A DNA stretch of 12,176 nucleotides from the NCBI GenBank assembly GCA_003660965.1, contig QMVF01000009.1, positions 1 to 12,176 of the forward strand. The letters run 5' to 3'. The stretch is from Microcaldota archaeon (GTDB lineage: Archaea > Micrarchaeota > Micrarchaeia > Burarchaeales > Burarchaeaceae). Position numbers and translations under genes: made by a program. The notes under the pieces were generated by a model that searched no databases, had not been told where the DNA came from, and was given only the letters and a program-made list of their open reading frames with translations. How positions within the stretch are numbered: the first letter of the stretch is position 1; every line of letters begins with the position of its first letter. Positions 22 to 10,349 of this stretch are shown here, one piece after another.

Positions 22-188
22 TCGCCCCAGTCCTCTTCTACTACTGGTGCGGGCTGAATTTTCAATGGCTGCAAGCTCATCACTTCGAGCCTTGAGCCGC
101 AGTCCAGGCAGCTGAAAATTTCACCGAGCTCAAGCTCTTTCTTTGGCTTCAGCACGCAGTCGCATTCCGGGCATTTGGTTTCCATCAT
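18..188 (-). CDS. lysW: LysW-type amino-group carrier protein
   Basis: A 56-residue acidic protein, the usual size of LysW. It has an N-terminal zinc-ribbon pattern (C6-x2-C9 and C27-x2-C30, with an extra C11) and ends in the family hallmark EDWGE. In this family the side-chain carboxyl of the last glutamate is linked to the amino group of glutamate or 2-aminoadipate. This prevents cyclisation and gives later enzymes a negatively charged handle during ornithine or lysine synthesis. Placement directly after argG points to arginine/ornithine synthesis here, though some archaea share one LysW between both pathways. Two adjacent ATGs are possible. The first (188) overlaps the argG stop as ATGA. 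The second (185) is better spaced from the Shine-Dalgarno GAGGTG (2 versus 5 nt). The gene was found by direct translation and is very well supported despite its length. Confidence 0.93.
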   Translation of the reverse strand: MMETKCPECDCVLKPKKELELGEIFSCLDCGSRLEVMSLQPLKIQPAPVVEEDWGE

Positions 189-1393
189 CCCACCTCGTTT
201 GCATTTGTTATTTCATTCGCCAGCTTTGACTGCAGCCCCCACAGTTGAATGAAGCCCTCTGAGGCCTTTTGGTCGAAAAGGCTGGCCTTATCATAAGTTG
301 CCAAATTCAGATCGTAGAGTGCGTTTGGCGAGGAGAGTGAAACCACCTTGCAGCTGCCCTTGTAGAGCTTGAGCTTAACCTTGCCCTTTACTTTCTTGTT
401 GGCCTCATCCATGTAGGCATTGAGCGCATTCACAAGTGGATCGTGCCAGAGGCCTGCATAAACCAGATAGCTCCATTTGCTCTCCAGTATTGGTTTGAAC
501 TGGTTCTCGTGTATAGTGCTCACGTATTTTTCAAGCTCCTTGTGCGCCTTGATTATGCACTCTGCAGCAGGACATTCGTAGACCTCGCGCGTCTTAAGCC
601 CCACTATCCTATCCTCCATGTGCTCCATTATTCCAACCCCGTGTGCTGCGGCTATTGAATTGAGCTTTGCTATCAGGGCGTGCAGTTCGAGCTTTTCGCT
701 GTTTAATTTTATTGGCAAGCCCTTCTCGAATTCCAATTCAACAAACTCTGCCTTATCTGGTGCTTTTTCAGGCAGGGTGACTAGTCGGAATGCATCTGCT
801 GGTGCTTCCTGTTCAGGCTTCTCGAGAATTCCGCATTCGGTGCTCTTGCCCCAAAGATTTTCATCGGTTGAATAGGTTTTGTTCTCGTTTGGAATTGGTA
901 TGCTGTGCGCTTTTGCATAATCGATTTCCTCATCGCGCGAAAGATTCCAGTTGCGTATTGGTGCAAGCACTTTGAGCTTTGAATTAAGGCAGGCAATTCC
1001 GACTTCCACCCGAACCTGATCATTACCCTTGCCAGTGCAGCCATGCGCAATAGCGTCCGCGCCCTCTTGCTCTGCTAGTTGAACTGCAAGTTTTGCTATA
1101 AGTGGGCGGCCCAGGGCAGTGCTCAGGGGGTAAACGCCTCCGTAAAGTGCATTTGCCTTTATTGCCTTGGCTATATAATCGTATGCAAATTCCTTCTTCG
1201 CATCTATTACGAAAGCCTTTTCAGCTCCAAGCTTCAGAGCCTTTTCCTTTGCCGCATTCAAATCAAGGTCTGACTGGCCCAGATCAACAGTTAGGGTGAT
1301 GAGCTTGGCTCCGTATTTCTCCTGAATCATTTTGAGAAGAACGCTAGTGTCAAGCCCGCCTGAGTAGAGCAGTACGACTTTTTTGAAATTCAT
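185..1393 (-). CDS. argG: Argininosuccinate synthase
   Basis: Joins citrulline and aspartate using ATP, releasing AMP and pyrophosphate, to make argininosuccinate in the cytoplasm. From MNFKKVVLLY the protein has 402 residues, the normal length. The PP-loop SGGLDTS is at residues 11-17, followed by the family blocks around STALGRPLIAK (91-101) and HGCTGKGNDQVR (117-128). The frame stays open 59 codons further upstream, but that stretch lies wholly inside argF and has no family similarity. The ATG at 1393 instead directly precedes the conserved N-terminus, has a GGGGTGA Shine-Dalgarno 4 nt upstream and overlaps the argF stop by 4 bp. It is third in the argH-argF-argG-lysW operon, so translation is probably coupled to argF. 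Confidence 0.96.
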   Translation of the reverse strand: MNFKKVVLLYSGGLDTSVLLKMIQEKYGAKLITLTVDLGQSDLDLNAAKEKALKLGAEKAFVIDAKKEFAYDYIAKAIKANALYGGVYPLSTALGRPLIAKLAVQLAEQEGADAIAHGCTGKGNDQVRVEVGIACLNSKLKVLAPIRNWNLSRDEEIDYAKAHSIPIPNENKTYSTDENLWGKSTECGILEKPEQEAPADAFRLVTLPEKAPDKAEFVELEFEKGLPIKLNSEKLELHALIAKLNSIAAAHGVGIMEHMEDRIVGLKTREVYECPAAECIIKAHKELEKYVSTIHENQFKPILESKWSYLVYAGLWHDPLVNALNAYMDEANKKVKGKVKLKLYKGSCKVVSLSSPNALYDLNLATYDKASLFDQKASEGFIQLWGLQSKLANEITNANEVG

Positions 1394-2301
1394 GCATTCA
1401 CCCCTGGCTTTGGATTCGAAAGCATCAGCAGAACTGCCTTCTGAACATGCAGACGATTGGCAGCTTGCTGGAAGACTGCTGATTGCGGGCCTTCGATTAC
1501 ATCTGGAGCAACTTCCAAGCCCTTGTGCGCTGGCAAGCAGTGCATGAATATTGCATCTGGCTTTGCGCATTCCATGAGCTCCTGCGTGATTTGAAAGCCC
1601 TTGAATGCCTTGAGCTTCTGCTCTGCTTCATTCTCCTGGCCCATGCTCACCCAAGCATCTGTATAAACTACATCTGCATCGGCTGCTGCTTCGGGCGGCT
1701 TATTGGTGCGGTTTACAGTAAAGCCGTTGTTTGCAACTTCAGATGCCTTTTTGATTATCGATTTGCTAGGTCCGTAGTTGGCAGGTGAAGCAATTGCAAT
1801 TTCAAGCCCAGTAAGTGCGCAGGCGAGCAGCAGGGAGTTGGATACATTATTGGAATCACCTATGTAGGCAAGTTTGGTTTTATGCAAGCCCTTCGATTCG
1901 CTTATGGTAAGCAGGTCCGCTAGCGCTTGGCAGGGATGCTCGAGATTGCTGAGTGCATTTATTACTGGAATCGGACTGTGGGCTGCCAAAGCCTCGAGTG
2001 ATGAATGGCTGTTAACGCGCGCAAGCAGGAAGTCTGCATATTGTGCTATTGAGTTTGCAGTATCGTGCGCATCCTCATGACCATTGAGAAGATGTGCTCC
2101 GCCCAACTCTATATAATACCCGCCCATCTGCAGAACTGCAAGCTGAAAGGAGAGCTTTGTGCGGGTGCTGGACTTTTCAAATATAGCCGCCAGTGCCTTG
2201 TGCTTGAGTGCGTGCGCATAGGTAGGTGGATTTTCCTTTACAGCTTTTGCTAGGGAGAGGACTTTTGAAACGTTGATGTCGGTTATTGATAGGAAGTTCA
2301 T
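1390..2301 (-). CDS. argF: Ornithine carbamoyltransferase
   Basis: Transfers the carbamoyl group of carbamoyl phosphate to ornithine, giving citrulline. The protein has 303 residues, normal for the family. The carbamoyl-phosphate loop SSTRTKLSF is at residues 44-52, HPCQ at 122-125, the ornithine-side DAWVSMG at 215-221 and HCLPA at 254-258; a C-terminal NRLHVQKA block is also present. The combination of HPCQALAD, SMG and HCLPA favours ornithine over aspartate as substrate. The phosphate loop reads STRTK where STRTR is usual, a conservative change. Acetylornithine or other variant substrates cannot be fully excluded, but the neighbouring argG and argH support the ordinary pathway. The ATG overlaps the argH stop by 4 bp with only a weak Shine-Dalgarno (GGTTGA), suggesting coupled translation. 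Confidence 0.94.
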   Translation of the reverse strand: MNFLSITDINVSKVLSLAKAVKENPPTYAHALKHKALAAIFEKSSTRTKLSFQLAVLQMGGYYIELGGAHLLNGHEDAHDTANSIAQYADFLLARVNSHSSLEALAAHSPIPVINALSNLEHPCQALADLLTISESKGLHKTKLAYIGDSNNVSNSLLLACALTGLEIAIASPANYGPSKSIIKKASEVANNGFTVNRTNKPPEAAADADVVYTDAWVSMGQENEAEQKLKAFKGFQITQELMECAKPDAIFMHCLPAHKGLEVAPDVIEGPQSAVFQQAANRLHVQKAVLLMLSNPKPGVNA

Positions 2302-3674
2302 TTGCTCAACCCTGCCAGCAACTTTTCTGAATTTTTCAGAATTTGAGATGGGTTCGGACCGCTGGCTGTGGTTTGTTCAACCACCCAATTTGCATCCTTA
2401 CACTGAGAAAGCTCGCTTGCCTGAACTGAAACTCCAAATTGCTTAAGCTCTGAATTCAAAACCTCTAGTTTCAACTCGCCGCTTCCTTTTGCAAGCGCCT
2501 TTTCAATTGTTTTTCTGGACTGGTTGAATGGAATTTTGTACTCCAGCGTGAGCTGCTCAGCAACTGCAAGCGAGGTGGTGGAAGGCTGGAGGGAGGAGAG
2601 CATTTTCTCTGTATTTGGTTTTAGCTCTGCAATCACTTCAGGCATTATGGCGAGTGAGGGAAGGAAATGTGAAATAGCCTTCAGCAATTCCTGCTTTCCG
2701 AACTGCGAGTCCTTGTTGTAGCCTGCTAAGTTTGATTTTGAAAGCGAGAGAATTGAGAGGAGCGAGGAGTGCGCGAGGGTGGTCTTTGCTTTTATGGCCT
2801 CCAGAACATCCGGGTTTTTCTTTTGAGGCATTGCAGAGCTTCCGGTTGTATGCTTTTCACTAAGCTGAATGTAATCGAATTCGCTGGTTGAGAAGAGCAT
2901 GAGCGTTTGGGCCAGTATACTAAGGTGGGTCATTGTGGAAGCAAGGCAGTAGGCAAAGTCTGCCTCCAGCTCCCAGCGGCTTGCAATTGCATCAAGTGAG
3001 TTTTCATAGGCTTTTGAAAAGCCAAGCAAGTCTGCAGTTTGAGCAGAATTGATTGGAAAGGTTGTGCTGAAGCCGGTGCCTGCACCCAGTGGGCAGGAGC
3101 TGTGAAGCTCGAGCCATTGGTCGAACTTCTGCGCATCGCGCTTAAACGAGTAGGCAAATGCAAGCAGCAGGTGGCCAAGGGTTGTGGGAAGGGCCTGTTG
3201 ATGATGAGTGTAGCCTGGCATTATGGAGTTTGAAGTTTCCTTTGCCTTTTCTGCAAGTGCTTTTGCAAGTTTTAGAAGTGAGGTTTTGAATTCACTAGCT
3301 TTTTGATTTAGAAAAATAGCTTCGGATGCAGCAACCTGATCATTGCGGCTTAGGCCGCAGCGGAAGTTTCCTGCTTTTGAGTTTTCGCTCAAGTAGTTGT
3401 AGACTGAAGTATGGATGTCCTCTGCTGGTTTCAGAAGCTTTGCGCCTTCCTTTTCAAGTTTTGAAATTGCAGTTAGCAGGCTCTCTTTTTCCTCATTTGA
3501 AATTATATTTTGTGAAGCGAGCATCTGTACATGGGCCTTGCTTACTGCAAGCTCGGCTGGAAGAAGCTGGAGATCTGCCTCCCAGTCTCCGCTGGAACAG
3601 AAATCAACTGCATTCTGACCTATTGCACTATAGCCACTGCCCCATAGCAAATTGCCGGTATGTTTATTTTCCAT
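2298..3674 (-). CDS. argH: Argininosuccinate lyase
   Basis: Cleaves argininosuccinate to arginine and fumarate, the last step of arginine synthesis. At 458 residues it matches the normal length for this fumarase/aspartase-superfamily homotetramer. Visible landmarks are LLWGSGY near the N-terminus (family LWGGRF region), SRNDQVA at 109-115, GYTHHQQALPTT at 154-165 (family GYTHLQ block), and the superfamily signature GSSAMPQKKNPD at 278-289, which carries the mobile catalytic loop. It is the first gene of the operon: a TATA element about 27 nt upstream of its ATG predicts a leaderless transcript, and a 4-bp ATGA overlap leads into argF. Having the last enzyme of the pathway first, ahead of the carrier protein, is notable. 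Confidence 0.96.
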   Translation of the reverse strand: MENKHTGNLLWGSGYSAIGQNAVDFCSSGDWEADLQLLPAELAVSKAHVQMLASQNIISNEEKESLLTAISKLEKEGAKLLKPAEDIHTSVYNYLSENSKAGNFRCGLSRNDQVAASEAIFLNQKASEFKTSLLKLAKALAEKAKETSNSIMPGYTHHQQALPTTLGHLLLAFAYSFKRDAQKFDQWLELHSSCPLGAGTGFSTTFPINSAQTADLLGFSKAYENSLDAIASRWELEADFAYCLASTMTHLSILAQTLMLFSTSEFDYIQLSEKHTTGSSAMPQKKNPDVLEAIKAKTTLAHSSLLSILSLSKSNLAGYNKDSQFGKQELLKAISHFLPSLAIMPEVIAELKPNTEKMLSSLQPSTTSLAVAEQLTLEYKIPFNQSRKTIEKALAKGSGELKLEVLNSELKQFGVSVQASELSQCKDANWVVEQTTASGPNPSQILKNSEKLLAGLSK

Positions 3675-3696
3675 GCATAATTGGAGTTTTGCGCTG

Positions 3697-3706
3697 GATT
3701 TAAAAC
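3697..3706 (-). promoter_or_regulatory. TATA box of the argH-argF-argG-lysW operon
   Basis: On the minus strand the sequence reads GTTTTAAATC. Its TTTAAA core is centred about 27 nt before the argH ATG, the distance at which archaeal transcription starts at or next to the start codon. No Shine-Dalgarno is evident between the box and the ATG, which fits a leaderless mRNA. Assigned by position and composition only. Confidence 0.65.
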
Positions 3707-3759
3707 TTTCGTTAAATATGTTGCAAATAAAACTTATTATGTTTTAAATAGAACATTCT

Positions 3760-4173
3760 TTATTCCCGAAAGGAAGCTTTCCGCGTTTTTATGGCCGCTT
3801 CGGCCTCGCTTCTGCTTACAGTTTCCCGAATTTCGTAGACTATCATGTGGCGTCTGGTTCTTGTCTTGTTGAAAAACTTGACCAGGATGGAACTTTTGCC
3901 CGTTAGCTTTATGGCTGCGAACTTGACAACTGCAAGGTGCTTGTACTCTCCCTTTGGCCTGTAGCCGAACCGAAACATCAGCGCCCTGCCGGCCTGGAGC
4001 ATCGAATTGTAAGCTATGGCCAAGGCCCAGTCGTAATCGCCGCTTTCGAAAACTGTTCTGGATGTCTTCAGGTCTTTTTCAGCGGAAGCTAAGGTTTGCT
4101 CAACGAGCTTCGGTGTGGTTTCAAAAGCTTCTATCAGACCCTCGGCCAACAGATTTTCTAAACTCACGCTCAT
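3760..4173 (-). CDS. HEPN-domain protein, partner of the upstream nucleotidyltransferase
   Basis: A 137-residue, mostly helical protein resembling HEPN proteins of MNT/HEPN pairs. It has the family run around AEKDLKTSRTVFESGDYDWA (31-50), then AYNSMLQAGRALMF (54-67) and GYRPKGEYKH (70-79). In many such pairs the HEPN member is an RNase-type toxin and the nucleotidyltransferase neutralises it by AMP transfer. The catalytic signature is not canonical here: instead of a clean R-x4-6-H there is TRTRRHMIVYE (104-114), with R108 to Y113 spaced as R-x4-Y, so RNase activity is uncertain. The start lies 53 bases inside the end of the nucleotidyltransferase gene in another frame, an unusually long overlap. 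The conserved region begins soon after this ATG, so a much later start would remove family sequence. Toxin-antitoxin function is inferred. Confidence 0.82.
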   Translation of the reverse strand: MSVSLENLLAEGLIEAFETTPKLVEQTLASAEKDLKTSRTVFESGDYDWALAIAYNSMLQAGRALMFRFGYRPKGEYKHLAVVKFAAIKLTGKSSILVKFFNKTRTRRHMIVYEIRETVSRSEAEAAIKTRKASFRE

Positions 4174-4717
4174 CGCCTTTTATCATTATCAGCGGGTTCT
4201 TTATTATGTTTATCAGCAGATGGTGCCCCTCTTGCGCATTCTTCAGGAATTCGGCCTTGGTCCACAGCACGTAGTTTATCTCCCTGCCAGTTTTCCTCTC
4301 TGCTACTGAGATGATGCGCATCAGGCTTGATTGGTTGATTTTGCCCACTAACAGGAGGTCTATGTCGCTCTTTTCATTTTCAGTTCCCTTTGCAAAGCTC
4401 CCGTATATTATGGCATAGTCTATTGCGCTTCTCTTGAAAGCGTTTTGCAACAATGCGCCAAGGCTTTCGGTCTTCAAAAACAAGTTTTTGATGTCCTTGT
4501 AAATAGGGGAGCGCCTGTTGATCCCCCATATGCACAGGTTACCGACCTTCTTGCTTGAGACCAGACCGAGCTGCTCCAGCGTTTCGAGCTCCTTCTTCAC
4601 ATATATAGGGGTTATGTCTATGCGCCGTGAGATCTCCCGTAGATGAAGGGGCTTTGAGAATAGGAGGAGCTCTAGCAACCTCGTAGTTGTCTTTGATTTG
4701 AAAAGTTTTTCCAACAT
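4121..4717 (-). CDS. Winged-helix / MNT-type nucleotidyltransferase fusion
   Basis: A 198-residue protein with two parts. Residues 1-65 look like an ArsR-like winged helix (LREISRRIDITPIYVKKELETLEQLGLV, about 26-53). Residues 98-180 form a minimal nucleotidyltransferase of the polymerase-beta superfamily, with the metal-binding pattern GSFAKGT...SDIDLLLVG (G106, S107, D118, D120). The third acidic position usually found downstream is not obvious; the corresponding strand reads REINYVLW. It is followed, with a 53-bp overlap, by a HEPN gene, the standard MNT/HEPN arrangement. The fused DNA-binding domain and a palindrome in its own promoter suggest autoregulation. The ATG is preceded by TTTAAA at about 29 nt. 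Function as an antitoxin that AMPylates HEPN is inference from the family. Confidence 0.85.
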   Translation of the reverse strand: MLEKLFKSKTTTRLLELLLFSKPLHLREISRRIDITPIYVKKELETLEQLGLVSSKKVGNLCIWGINRRSPIYKDIKNLFLKTESLGALLQNAFKRSAIDYAIIYGSFAKGTENEKSDIDLLLVGKINQSSLMRIISVAERKTGREINYVLWTKAEFLKNAQEGHHLLINIIKNPLIMIKGDEREFRKSVGRGSDRSF

Positions 4718-4729
4718 GTAATCTATCAG

Positions 4730-4743
4730 TATACGAACGTATA
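4730..4743. promoter_or_regulatory. Candidate operator palindrome in the MNT/HEPN promoter
   Basis: Perfect 6-bp inverted repeat TATACG-AA-CGTATA. It touches the downstream edge of the TATA element and precedes the expected transcription start near 4717. A repressor bound here would block TBP/TFB or polymerase. The adjacent gene encodes a winged-helix protein, the natural candidate ligand. Binding is inferred, and short AT-rich dyads can occur by chance. Confidence 0.45.
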
Positions 4744-4750
4744 TTTAAAG
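4742..4750 (-). promoter_or_regulatory. TATA box of the nucleotidyltransferase-HEPN pair
   Basis: On the minus strand it reads CTTTAAATA, with TTTAAA centred about 29 nt before the ATG at 4717. It lies in the 51-bp gap after the RuBisCO stop codon, so the pair can be transcribed independently of the RuBisCO gene. Confidence 0.6.
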
Positions 4751-4768
4751 TTTACGCTTTCCTTCGAG

Positions 4769-6064
4769 TTATTTTGGCTTAAGCCTCCCCCATTTCTTAA
4801 GTGCCTGCGCGAGTTCCTCGTGCTTCTTCGCGTATTCCTCAAGCGCGATGCCGTGCATGCTCGCTTCAACAGCCTGCCTAGCTGCGATTGCGCCTGCGCG
4901 TGTGCCCTTCGGGTGGCCGTGAATTCCGCCGCTTACCAGAATCACGCATTCCTTGCCTAGAATCCGCATGACTTCCGGCACTAGGCCTGGATGAAGGCCT
5001 CCTGAGGAAACTGGGAAGGCTGGCTTTATTGAGCCCCAATTCTGGGCGAGCAGCGTGCCTGCCTCTGCCCTAGTTTTCTTCTCGCGCAGAACATTTGCAA
5101 TTGAATTTACCTCGTGCTTCCCGCCTACCAGTTTGCCAACTGCGGTGCCGCCATGAATCTCGTCTACTCCAATCAGCCTCATCAATTTTGCAAGGAATTG
5201 CATGGTAATTCCGTGCTTCAGGTTGCGGTCAAAGGATGCGTGCATTGCCCTGTGTGCATGGATTGCAATTCCATAATCTCCAAGCACTTCGCGCATGGTC
5301 TGCACTGCTGAAGTTCCGCATACAACCACATCAAGCATTGCATAGCGCCAGCCATGCTCGTGCAGTACTTTAGCTCGCTTAATCATTTCGCGCGTTTCCC
5401 CGGTTATATTTATGAGTGCATCTTTCCGCTCGCCCGTTTCGCGTTCTGCCTTATCCCGCAGCTTGGTCATCAGCCTTACCCGCTCGCTGAAGCGGTTGAA
5501 TTTTTGTGAGGTTAGGTTTTCATCATCCTTTACCAGATCAAATCCTCCAAGCCAAGTTTCAAATCCAACTTGCGCATGCTCGCTGGCGCTGAAACCAACC
5601 TTTGGCTTTGGAACTGCTCCCAGCATGGGCCTTCTCTTTACTTTCATAAGCCTGCGCAAACCATGAATTCCGTGCCTGGGTCCTTTGAAATTCTTTAAGT
5701 AGGAGGGGGGCAAGACTACATCCATCAAACGAAGGTTTTTCAGAGCTTTCATTCCGAATATGTTGCCCGCAATTCCGCTCAGCAGCTGGGGTGCATTGCC
5801 CGCTTCCCACAAATCAAGCGGGTAGGCTATCTTCACGTAGTTGCCCTTGATTTCGTAGGCAGTTGCCATCAGATCTTTCATGCGTGGCGGGAGCTTGTGC
5901 AGGGTGGTCCAAGTTCCGGTTGAGCTTTCTGATGCTATTCTGCCTGCAGCCTCCTTTGAGCTCACTCCCTTTGCAGGTTCAAAGTAGAAGAGTGCAACCA
6001 AATCATTCTTGTTTGGCCTATAACTTGTATTTACGAAATCAGCGTACCATTCAATGCGCGCCAT
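4769..6064 (-). CDS. rbcL: RuBisCO large chain, archaeal form III-like
   Basis: Ribulose-1,5-bisphosphate carboxylase of 431 residues. The catalytic set is present (spinach numbers in brackets): E46 (E60), T51 and W52 (T65, W66), N101 (N123), K153 and K155 in KPK (K175, K177), the carbamylated lysine K179 with D181 and E182 in VKDDE (K201, D203, E204), H271-R272 (H294, R295), H304 (H327), K311 of loop 6 (K334) and S354-G355-G356 (S379-G381). It should be an active enzyme rather than a RuBisCO-like protein. Loop 8 reads VSGGIHGHP, where Thermococcus-type enzymes have GGGTLGHP. In archaea form III works in AMP/nucleoside salvage with AMP phosphorylase and ribose-1,5-bisphosphate isomerase; neither is in this window. 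The frame opens 17 codons upstream, but similarity starts at MARIEWYADF and a TATA box lies 26 nt before this ATG. Confidence 0.95.
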   Translation of the reverse strand: MARIEWYADFVNTSYRPNKNDLVALFYFEPAKGVSSKEAAGRIASESSTGTWTTLHKLPPRMKDLMATAYEIKGNYVKIAYPLDLWEAGNAPQLLSGIAGNIFGMKALKNLRLMDVVLPPSYLKNFKGPRHGIHGLRRLMKVKRRPMLGAVPKPKVGFSASEHAQVGFETWLGGFDLVKDDENLTSQKFNRFSERVRLMTKLRDKAERETGERKDALINITGETREMIKRAKVLHEHGWRYAMLDVVVCGTSAVQTMREVLGDYGIAIHAHRAMHASFDRNLKHGITMQFLAKLMRLIGVDEIHGGTAVGKLVGGKHEVNSIANVLREKKTRAEAGTLLAQNWGSIKPAFPVSSGGLHPGLVPEVMRILGKECVILVSGGIHGHPKGTRAGAIAARQAVEASMHGIALEEYAKKHEELAQALKKWGRLKPK

Positions 6065-6085
6065 GAAGTAGCTTCTGCAGATGGG

Positions 6086-6094
6086 AATAAATAG
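6086..6094 (-). promoter_or_regulatory. TATA box of the RuBisCO gene
   Basis: Minus-strand CTATTTATT centred about 26 nt upstream of the ATG at 6064. This supports that ATG as a leaderless start over the in-frame ATG at 6115. A competing AT-rich block near 6140 sits at similar distance from 6115 but is equally explained by the divergent gene. Confidence 0.55.
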
Positions 6095-6132
6095 GTGAGC
6101 TTTGAGTTTGGGCAAAATTCAACGGGCAGTAG

Positions 6133-7528: not shown

Positions 7529-8938
7529 ATGATGAATGTTCCAAAATCGAATTTCTCGGAATGGTACAACTACGTGCTTGAAGAAGCGGAGATACTTGAC
7601 ATAAGATACCCAGTAAAGGGAATGCCTGTTTACAAGCCCTGGGGCTTCAAGATAATGAGGAGGTGCTTTGATCTGCTCGAAGCTCTGCTCAACTCAGCGG
7701 GCCATGATGCATCCTACTTTCCTCTCTTGGTGCCTGAAGAGCAGTTTGCAAAAGAGGGGAAGCACATAAAGGGCTTTGGCTCAGACGTACTGTGGGCAAC
7801 TCACGGGGGGGAGCAGGAGCTTGAGAGAAAGCTTGCCCTTAGACCTACAAGTGAAACCATAATGTATCCAATGTTCGCTCTCTGGATAAGGTCTCATGCA
7901 GACCTTCCCCTAAAAGTGCACCAGACAGTGTGCGTTTACAGGCATGAAACCAAAGCAACTAAGCCTTTGATAAGGGGGAGGGAGGTTTACTGGAATGAAG
8001 CCCATACCGTGCATGCGAATGCAGAGGAGGCGGAAATGCAGGTTGGGGAGGGAGTTCATATTTACAAGCGGTTTTTCGACAGCCTGGGAGTCCCTACCAT
8101 GATTCTTAAAAGGCCGGAGTATGACACATTCCCTGGTGCAGCATATTCTCTCGCTTTTGATGCATTGATGCCTGATGGAAAAACCTTGCAGGTTGGCACT
8201 GTTCATAATTTGGGGGATAATTTCTCCAAGGCATATGGAATTCAGTATGATGATGCGCATGGAGAGAAGAAAGGCGTTTACCAGACTTGCTACGGCATAA
8301 GTATGAGATGTCTTGCAATTGTAATAGCAGTGCACGGAGATGACAAGGGGCTTATGCTGCCTTCAAGCGTGGCGCCTGTTCAGGCAGTATTGGTTCCTAT
8401 ATTCTTTGGAAAGAAGGAGGAGCTGCTTAAGAAGTGTGAGGAGCTCAGAGCAAGTTTGGAAGCTGGGGGAGTTAGAACTAAGATTGATGACGAGGATGTG
8501 AGGCCTGGCGAAAAGTACTACTACTGGGATGCGCGTGGTGTTCCATTGCATATTGAAATAGGTCCAAGGGAGCTTGATGCTGGAAAGGTGGTGCTGGTAA
8601 GCAGAGATGGGAGGAAGAAAAGTGTTGATGAGAAGGATGTTTTGAATGAAGTTAAAACTATGCTGGAGGAGCAGGATAAGAGGCTTTACGAGAGGGCTTC
8701 CAAAAAGCTACAGGCAAGCATGAAGAGCGCGAAGAGCATAGATGAGCTGAAAGGGATTATGAATAAAGAGAAAGGATTTGTTAAGATTGGATGGTGCGAG
8801 GAGGAGAAGTGTGCTGAGAAGGTTGAGGTGCAGGGTGCTGCTGAAATAAGGGGATGCGAATATAATAAGAGGGAGGCAATGAAGTGCGTAGCCTGCGGAA
8901 AGGAAGGGATTGCAGTGTGGGCTGCCAAGGCATACTGA
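7529..8938 (+). CDS. proS: Prolyl-tRNA synthetase, archaeal/eukaryotic type
   Basis: Class II aminoacyl-tRNA synthetase that charges tRNA-Pro. At 469 residues it is short, without the insertion domain of the bacterial long form. Visible features are FPLLVPE (64-70, motif 1 region), LRPTSET (104-110), motif 2 RHETKATKPLIRGREVYW (138-155) followed by NEAHTVHA, motif 3 with R260 in GISMR and HGDDKG (269-274). An anticodon-binding domain follows (about 284-380). The C-terminal extension of archaeal/eukaryotic ProRS carries a probable zinc site (C423, C428, C453, C456, with C443 between) and ends in the characteristic tyrosine. Two adjacent ATGs (7529, 7532) fit the TATA distance about equally. 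A downstream MscS gene follows but has its own TATA. Confidence 0.97.
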   Translation: MMNVPKSNFSEWYNYVLEEAEILDIRYPVKGMPVYKPWGFKIMRRCFDLLEALLNSAGHDASYFPLLVPEEQFAKEGKHIKGFGSDVLWATHGGEQELERKLALRPTSETIMYPMFALWIRSHADLPLKVHQTVCVYRHETKATKPLIRGREVYWNEAHTVHANAEEAEMQVGEGVHIYKRFFDSLGVPTMILKRPEYDTFPGAAYSLAFDALMPDGKTLQVGTVHNLGDNFSKAYGIQYDDAHGEKKGVYQTCYGISMRCLAIVIAVHGDDKGLMLPSSVAPVQAVLVPIFFGKKEELLKKCEELRASLEAGGVRTKIDDEDVRPGEKYYYWDARGVPLHIEIGPRELDAGKVVLVSRDGRKKSVDEKDVLNEVKTMLEEQDKRLYERASKKLQASMKSAKSIDELKGIMNKEKGFVKIGWCEEEKCAEKVEVQGAAEIRGCEYNKREAMKCVACGKEGIAVWAAKAY

Positions 8939-10136: not shown

Positions 10137-10160
10137 GATGCCATAGTAGTCCCGGGAGGA

Positions 10161-10215
10161 TTTCCGGCACCCTTTTTAGGGGTGTAGAGAGGGGGCGAGA
10201 ATCGTGCCCCCTCCT
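10161..10215 (-). other. tRNA-Gln intron 2 (T-loop, 59/60), 55 nt
   Basis: Interrupts the T-loop between G59 (10216) and T60 (10160). At this position a four-pair central helix forms between exon T54-G57 (TTCG) and intron 10166-10163 (CGGA). The T stem is the outer helix and there are three-base bulges A58-G59/A10215 and A10162-A10161/T60. Placing the splice at 57/58 or 58/59 gives a plausible T-loop but a poorer helix, so 59/60 is preferred. The intron contains two hairpins: GGGGGC/GCCCCC (extended to about 9 bp, 10214-10188) and CACCC/GGGTG (10184-10168). Confidence 0.83.
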
Positions 10216-10236
10216 CTCGAACCTCCGCTAACAGGT

Positions 10237-10289
10237 TTCCTTTCTTTTCTTTCCGCGGGCACTTTCTTTTTCTAAAAGAAAGGGCCCTT
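10237..10289 (-). other. tRNA-Gln intron 1 (anticodon loop, 37/38), 53 nt
   Basis: Lies between G37 (10290) and A38 (10236). A bulge-helix-bulge can be drawn: exon C32-T35 pairs with intron 10242-10239 (two A-T, one G-T, one G-C). This leaves three-base bulges G36-G37/A10289 and A10238-A10237/A38, cleaved after their second base as archaeal tRNA endonuclease does. The intron-side helix is weak. The intron body holds a strong hairpin: CTTTCTTTT and AAAAGAAAG (10282-10274 and 10270-10262, 9 bp, loop AGA), extended by GGGC/GCCC after one mismatch. Confidence 0.85.
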
Positions 10290-10327
10290 CCAAAGCCTGT
10301 CGTGCTTGACCACTACACTACGGGACT

Positions 10328-10349
10328 ATAAGGAACCGAGGTTCCTTAT
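10328..10349. repeat. Perfect inverted repeat abutting the tRNA 5' end
   Basis: Two 10-bp arms, ATAAGGAACC and GGTTCCTTAT, separated by two bases (GA on the plus strand). The repeat ends exactly one base before nucleotide 1 of tRNA-Gln. The TATA element at 10372-10379 predicts a transcription start near 10350, so the repeat would make up the whole pre-tRNA leader. It could form an RNA hairpin stacking on the acceptor stem or be a protein-binding site on DNA. Function unknown. Confidence 0.8.

Follow-up and report, generated by a model that had tools for sequence, protein, structure and literature searches.

A two-intron tRNA-Gln(UUG) gene in a micrarchaeal genome whose tRNA genes, as far as read, nearly all carry a T-loop intron

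A tRNA-Gln(UUG) gene with one intron at the canonical site 37/38 and a second at 59/60 in the T-loop, where interruptions are rare, is no isolated oddity of its genome: almost all tRNA genes that we read in this micrarchaeon carry a T-loop intron. The tRNA introns of the genome form dispersed sequence families that appear to have been copied between tRNA genes and between sites. Taken as a whole, the explanation that we favor is partly inferred and drawn from sequence comparison, and we hold it to be very probably correct: the locus would be a functional single-locus tRNA-Gln(UUG) whose two introns, of EndA type (the bulge-helix-bulge class), come from families copied between tRNAs.

The two-intron observation is confirmed. 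On either strand of the window (the whole 12,176-nt stretch of DNA analyzed), a purpose-written scanner for cloverleaves with invariant bases and optional introns at 37/38 and 59/60 found tRNA-Gln(UUG) as the sole candidate scoring at least 14. It scored 20.5 out of 21 with a mature length of 73 nt, and a control of 40 first-order Markov shuffles of the window, searched on both strands, gave two matches, both at 14.0. The original prediction had placed the gene at 10147..10327, with introns of 53 nt (37/38) and 55 nt (59/60); the scanner agrees and adds the strand, which is minus, so that the 181-nt precursor runs from 10327 to 10147 with exons of 38, 21, and 14 nt (Table 1). The same score, and the uninterrupted 73-mers that relatives carry, bear out the accompanying claim that excision of both blocks leaves an intact 73-nt cloverleaf. 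Default ARAGORN and Rfam scans of the window missed the locus, and a covariance model trained with intron inserts detected it at 45.2 bits. A whole-window Rfam cmscan with E up to 1 returned a single match and no intron family; a group I intron was set aside, as no catalytic intron family was matched in that scan, and so was a split or permuted tRNA gene, since the three exons are collinear, on the same strand, and inside 181 nt.

Table 1. Exons, introns, and leader of the tRNA-Gln(UUG) locus (window positions)
Feature	Position	Strand	Evidence
Exon 1: acceptor 5′ strand, D-arm, anticodon arm to G37	10290..10327	-	scanner; aligns with uninterrupted L038/L039 orthologues
Intron 1, 53 nt, site 37/38, family I (pyrimidine tract, purine tract, mini-hairpin, second purine tract)	10237..10289	-	scanner; absent in L038/L039
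Exon 2: position 38 to G59 (anticodon stem 3′ strand, variable loop, T-stem 5′ strand, T-loop 54-59)	10216..10236	-	scanner
Intron 2, 55 nt, T-loop 59/60, family II: GGGGGCACG..CGCCCCC hairpin, then CACCCC..GGGTG hairpin	10161..10215	-	scanner; identical in tRNA-Asn(GUU); absent in L038/L039
Exon 3: T60, T-stem 3′ strand, acceptor 3′ strand, discriminator A	10147..10160	-	scanner
Palindromic leader hairpin, 10-bp arms, 2-nt loop, ending exactly at the tRNA 5′ end	10328..10349	-	10 net pairs, offset 0

All 27 tRNA genes that we read in the genome are interrupted. Among them 25 have a T-loop intron, a count that is biased toward interrupted genes by the five (5/27; Ser-GCU, Leu-CAA, Trp, Leu-UAA, and Val-CAC) found via intron patterns, that includes three (Ile, Pro-UGG, and Trp) running into a contig end before completion, and that becomes 20/22 when only genes found by tRNA models are considered. 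The bin (G000; 812,789 bases in 138 contigs) is fragmented and 77% complete. The Rfam tRNA model RF00005 gave seven matches in it, only two of them over the cut-off; Rfam tRNA matches at E up to 1 numbered 22, 22, 27, and 42 in G001 and G002 (same family), G007 (another family of the order), and G010, respectively. Our own tRNA model, built from 28 uninterrupted tRNAs and retrained on intron-bearing matches, marked 21 places in the genome, all 21 readable as tRNA genes, to which Asp-GUC was added from the Rfam model search. Eighteen of the 27 genes were read by the scanner (T-loop intron in 17, 37/38 intron in 15, both in 14, neither in 0), and nine by eye (Ile-GAU, Gly-UCC, Val-UAC, Pro-UGG, Ser-GCU, Leu-CAA, Trp-CCA, Leu-UAA, and Val-CAC). 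The exceptions without a T-loop intron are His-GUG, with a 37/38 intron, and Val-UAC, with D-loop and 37/38 introns; no uninterrupted tRNA gene, the type easiest to detect, was found in the bin among the 27 genes read. By our own count, with nine genes read by eye, these genes hold about 53 introns, some at 29/30, at 30/31, and in the D-arm. ARAGORN with introns allowed recovered one gene (His, labelled Ser) among the first seven loci of the genome. Judging from the 25/27 genes, nearly every tRNA would require excision of a T-loop intron before it is complete, and the T-loop may have become a second near-universal intron site in this genome.

A simple sequence pattern, GTTCRN{0,6}CCCTTTTC, searched in 301 genomes of the class, gave nine matches in this genome versus none in a backward control. 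Its tally of 153/301 genomes was rejected as a count of T-loop introns, most other genomes matching at about control frequency, and one match in this genome (L193) proved to lie in a protein gene. A second pattern, AAAGCGNNNNCGGAAA, occurred in 105/301 class genomes with many singletons at control level and was likewise rejected.

Integrases commonly use the T-arm and 3′ end of tRNA genes, the part that an intron at 59/60 splits. T-loop introns might on that ground be favored for breaking the 3′-half sites of tRNA-targeting integrases, an idea of site breaking that accessible text attributes to Randau and Soll (PMC3293823). The position of 59/60, which divides the T-arm and 3′ end, and the fact that almost all tRNAs of the genome are affected both suit this idea, which we nevertheless judge unlikely, since it accounts for the persistence of introns and not for their movement.

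Relatives carry T-loop introns as well, at lower shares. By scanner, distinct genes with a T-loop intron make up 13/31 in G001 (150 of 197 candidates scored), 9/32 in G002 (150 of 198), and 13/30 in G007 (150 of 268); among 12 tRNA genes examined in G010 there are none. Compared with the 17/18 scanner-read genes of the present genome, the fractions in G001, G002, and G007, each taken over its 150 scored candidates, are lower (P = 2e-4, 5e-6, and 5e-4, respectively, Fisher’s test). At least five T-loop introns seen by eye lie outside these scanner counts (L130, L132, L255, and L256 in G002; L245 in G007). The scanner misread the anticodon or the 37/38 intron at L118 (really Gly-UCC), L277, L292, and L212, where the T-loop assignments stand, and a spurious row in a protein-like region (L088) was left out of the relatives, similarity, and covariation counts. 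T-loop introns also occur in genomes of family f17 (G061, G067, G068, G077, and G078) and in G013 of family f6. The site thus serves in several families of the class, and in the genome studied here it is almost fully filled.

The T-loop intron of the window has an identical counterpart in another tRNA gene. Its 55 nt match the T-loop intron of tRNA-Asn(GUU) at 55/55 positions (L153), and in a DNA search the Asn locus aligned over 63/65 bases at 100%. A third copy, inverted and partial (92% over 37 nt, G000:C63:14-50, L316), directly precedes, as judged by eye, the start of an initiator tRNA that is cut by the contig end. Both Gln and Asn have G59 in this genome and A59 in relatives, as if the neighboring base had travelled together with the intron. 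Similarity extends well beyond this pair: of the 688 pairs that 38 introns of this genome form across different tRNAs, 193 beat the best of 4,000 shuffled pairs, and 85 of these high-scoring pairs join a 37/38 intron with a T-loop intron. In the sister genome G001, a near-identical 44-nt T-loop intron, unlike the introns of the present genome in sequence, sits in four tRNAs (elongator Met, Arg-CCU, Glu-UUC, and L277, whose anticodon was misread; L273, L274, L276, and L277), its copies showing few and partly paired differences. Because T-loop interruption is near universal and an identical copy of the insert exists, the inserts seem to be spreading among tRNA genes. Copying would take place at the DNA level, for example by gene conversion via shared T-loop flanks.

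Close relatives have empty sites at the same locus. The prolyl-tRNA synthetase (ProRS) encoded at 7529-8938 of the window has its nearest counterparts in Candidatus Burarchaeum (L038 and L039), at about 70% identity, and NCBI taxonomy places Candidatus Burarchaeum in class Candidatus Micrarchaeia. With these as its nearest named relatives, in kingdom Nanobdellati (often called DPANN), the genome is indeed not Thermoproteales-like, as had been supposed from its protein genes. The gene order RuBisCO-ProRS-MscS-tRNA-PLD-KaiC-ACT is kept in both Burarchaeum genomes, with the tRNA in opposite orientation in L039, and the syntenic tRNA-Gln(UUG) is in both an uninterrupted 73-nt gene with neither intron. 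The mature tRNA of the window differs from these orthologues at 6 and 8 positions, including changes on both sides of pair 3-70 (T-A vs. C-G) and of pair 51-63 (A-T vs. C-G in L039). Since the syntenic orthologues are uninterrupted and stems have changed on both sides, both blocks are genuine insertions, and the gene that they interrupt is under selection. The T-loop introns of five tRNAs of this genome (Gln-UUG, Phe, Gly-GCC, Asn, and Thr-GGU) are absent in both sister genomes, which points to gain in its own lineage. For the two tRNA-Gln(UUG) introns, gain in this lineage is most likely, a direction (gain here vs. loss in the relatives) that rests on two sister genomes.

Elsewhere in the window, positions 185-6115 hold genes for argininosuccinate synthase and the RuBisCO large subunit (Pfam). 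The genes between these two presumably encode ornithine carbamoyltransferase and argininosuccinate lyase, which they resemble.

The empty sites also bear on a more conservative account, in which the T-loop introns date far back and were passed on vertically, Burarchaeum has lost many of them, and the similarity across tRNAs reflects shared structural constraint. Some T-loop introns do look orthologous across genera (those of tRNA-Tyr here and in G001 are identical at 52/57 positions), and several families of the class contain T-loop introns; however, the full identity of the Gln and Asn introns with a shared G59 needs recent copying, neither sister genome has the T-loop intron in any of the five tRNAs, and a different T-loop intron has been copied among four tRNAs of G001, so that we consider purely vertical inheritance quite improbable. 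A decayed pseudogene or assembly artefact, with another copy functional, is scarcely credible even for a fragmented, 77%-complete bin, given the perfect cloverleaf, the compensatory stem changes, the recurrence of the architecture in 25/27 tRNA genes on many contigs and in the G001, G002, and G007 assemblies, and a search of the bin, which lacks roughly one quarter of the genome, that found no second, uninterrupted tRNA-Gln(UUG), the observation that the original prediction had set against its own reading.

In the mechanism that we propose, the T-loop intron would be guided by a four-pair helix between tRNA positions 54-57 (TTCR) and intron positions -6 to -3 (YGRA), covarying with R57. The scanner collected 64 T-loop introns of at least 12 nt from all genomes, for which we fixed the cut register at 59/60. 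In this register the central helix has four pairs in 36 introns, three in 12, two in 7, and one in 9, the last two classes making up 16/64; a forced 58/59 register gives four pairs in 10/64 and a forced 57/58 register in 0/64. Position 57 and intron position -6 are Watson-Crick matched in 47/64 introns (17/64 are not), vs. a permuted mean of 30.0 and maximum of 43 with 0/20,000 permutations reaching 47, a contrast somewhat inflated by intron relatedness. One group, cut at about 57/58 and including Arg-UCG and Ser-GGA of this genome, deviates from the standard motif and has a different junction; further introns probably belong to it. A T-loop junction of its own kind (TTCA, GGCC.. to ..AAA, AAT), which lacks the standard central helix, was seen in two families (L148, L159, L157 and, in family f17, L169 and L197).

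Both splice motifs of the window appear relaxed and not strict. The original prediction of a four-pair central helix flanked by three-base bulges at both sites stands in part: when the T-arm is folded alone and unconstrained, the fold shows the T-stem and, at 59/60, both the central helix (TTCG:CGGA) and the 3′ bulge, but the bases of the 5′ bulge pair with intron bases. At 37/38 the helix C32UUU:AAGG includes a G-U pair and the minimum-energy fold favors another register, and at neither site is the strict two-bulge form the minimum-energy fold.

Cutting of the precursor at 37/38 and 59/60 would fall to a broad-specificity three-unit (epsilon-2) endonuclease, after which RtcB would join the exons. 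RtcB is encoded in this genome (G000:C47, E = 2.3e-182). EndA (PF01974) has matches in 59/60 genomes, with just a 173-aa frame in G005; the sole exception is the present 77%-complete bin, where EndA was found neither by profile nor with the sister protein as query. The ARMAN-type three-unit enzyme that had been predicted is encoded in both same-family genomes, G001 and G002, as 386-aa epsilon-2 frames, with 0 matches in the bin itself. The G001 protein aligns end to end with the ARMAN-2 EndA 4fz2, a close homologue of solved structure (E = 2.4e-136), and retains Y236, H251, K282, and K161; the first three are catalytic and K161 is the lysine of the ARMAN-specific loop, according to the accessible text of PMC6379350.

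Family I introns share a characteristic anatomy. In them a pyrimidine tract, a complementary purine tract (R1), and a short hairpin are followed by another purine tract (R2), the mirror image of R1, the two purine tracts covarying in length (window 10237-10289; L004, L152, L153, L155, and L194). R2 mirrors R1 over the full compared length in 35 of 48 distinct elements, vs. a mean of 7.5 and a maximum of 15 when R2 is reshuffled among the elements (2,000 trials), a comparison uncorrected for relatedness and including a few elements that look like chance matches in A-rich regions. One reading of this mirroring, for which antiparallel pairing cannot account, is a triple-strand arrangement. Family I elements were also noticed in an apparent 23S rRNA intron of G001 (L249, G001:C12, by eye) and outside recognized tRNA genes (between genes at L244, G000:C36; intergenic or uncertain at L246, L248, and L260).

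Sequences flanking the tRNA genes recur as well. The near-perfect palindrome AAGGAACC..GGTTCCTT in the window leader (10328-10349) abuts the tRNA 5′ end. A leader hairpin with 7 or more net pairs, lying no farther than 3 nt from the 5′ end, was found in 11/18 genes examined in this genome, 13/30 in G001, 16/33 in G002 (where the spurious L088 is still among the 33), and 1/30 in G007. By eye, some 37/38 introns (L007, L106, and L207) have a sequence similar to the palindrome at their 3′ end. Similar trailers, TCTAG..TCTGTCTAGACTCC, directly follow tRNA-Asp (L158), tRNA-Arg-GCG (L004), and the tRNA-Asp of G001 (L092), and the tRNA-Ser-GCU leader (L192) holds tandem copies of a AAAGGAGGTTGATAAGGAACCTTGG unit.

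Several known systems resemble this one. ARMAN-1 and ARMAN-2, which by taxonomy belong to the same archaeal class, likewise have multi-intron tRNAs and an epsilon-2 EndA; a near-universal T-loop intron and dispersed families, both present in our genome, go unmentioned in the accessible parts of PMC4033280, PMC6379350, and PMC12397907. The site 59/60 is among the listed non-canonical archaeal tRNA intron positions, for which Crenarchaeota and Nanoarchaeota are rich sources (PMC4090602, accessible parts). Our introns share with those the site, an apparently relaxed bulge-helix-bulge, and the co-occurring 37/38 intron, whereas 59/60 is there one of many scattered sites and the micrarchaeon uses the T-loop (57-60) in 25/27 genes. 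In Thermoproteales, similar introns with rapid gain are described at canonical and other sites of different tRNAs (PMC4090602, PMC4033280, accessible parts). Both systems have near-identical introns that recur in more than one tRNA and at more than one site; the phylum is unrelated, however, and the micrarchaeal families have their own conserved architecture with the T-loop as preferred target. Pyrobaculum calidifontis, reported to have the most tRNA introns among assessed complete genomes (71 in 46 genes; PMC8450103, accessible parts), has a likewise very high load, at 1.5 per gene vs. about 53 introns in 27 genes here, none of them uninterrupted. The 59/60 site and dispersed tRNA introns in other archaea were therefore known already. 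No genome in which nearly all tRNAs have a T-loop intron was met in the literature searched on tRNA introns of Micrarchaeota/DPANN, ARMAN, and Burarchaeum and on T-loop introns, a body of text outside which many subscription papers lie, and the word “intron” is absent from the main text of PMC8561730, which describes Burarchaeum.

More tentatively, and as a possibility to which we give distinctly less than even weight, the tRNA introns might constitute an actively copying class of elements with the T-loop as preferred new target, making T-loop splicing obligatory for almost every tRNA, and the common family might have a triple-helix-like three-strand core that acts in splicing or copying. In practical terms, most tRNAs of such genomes escape a standard model (RF00005 places 2 over the cut-off vs. 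27 genes read), which biases the tRNA counts used for genome quality. A very recent copy, unoccupied sites at the corresponding locus of close relatives, and one site filled in nearly every tRNA read together open the origin of archaeal tRNA introns to direct testing.
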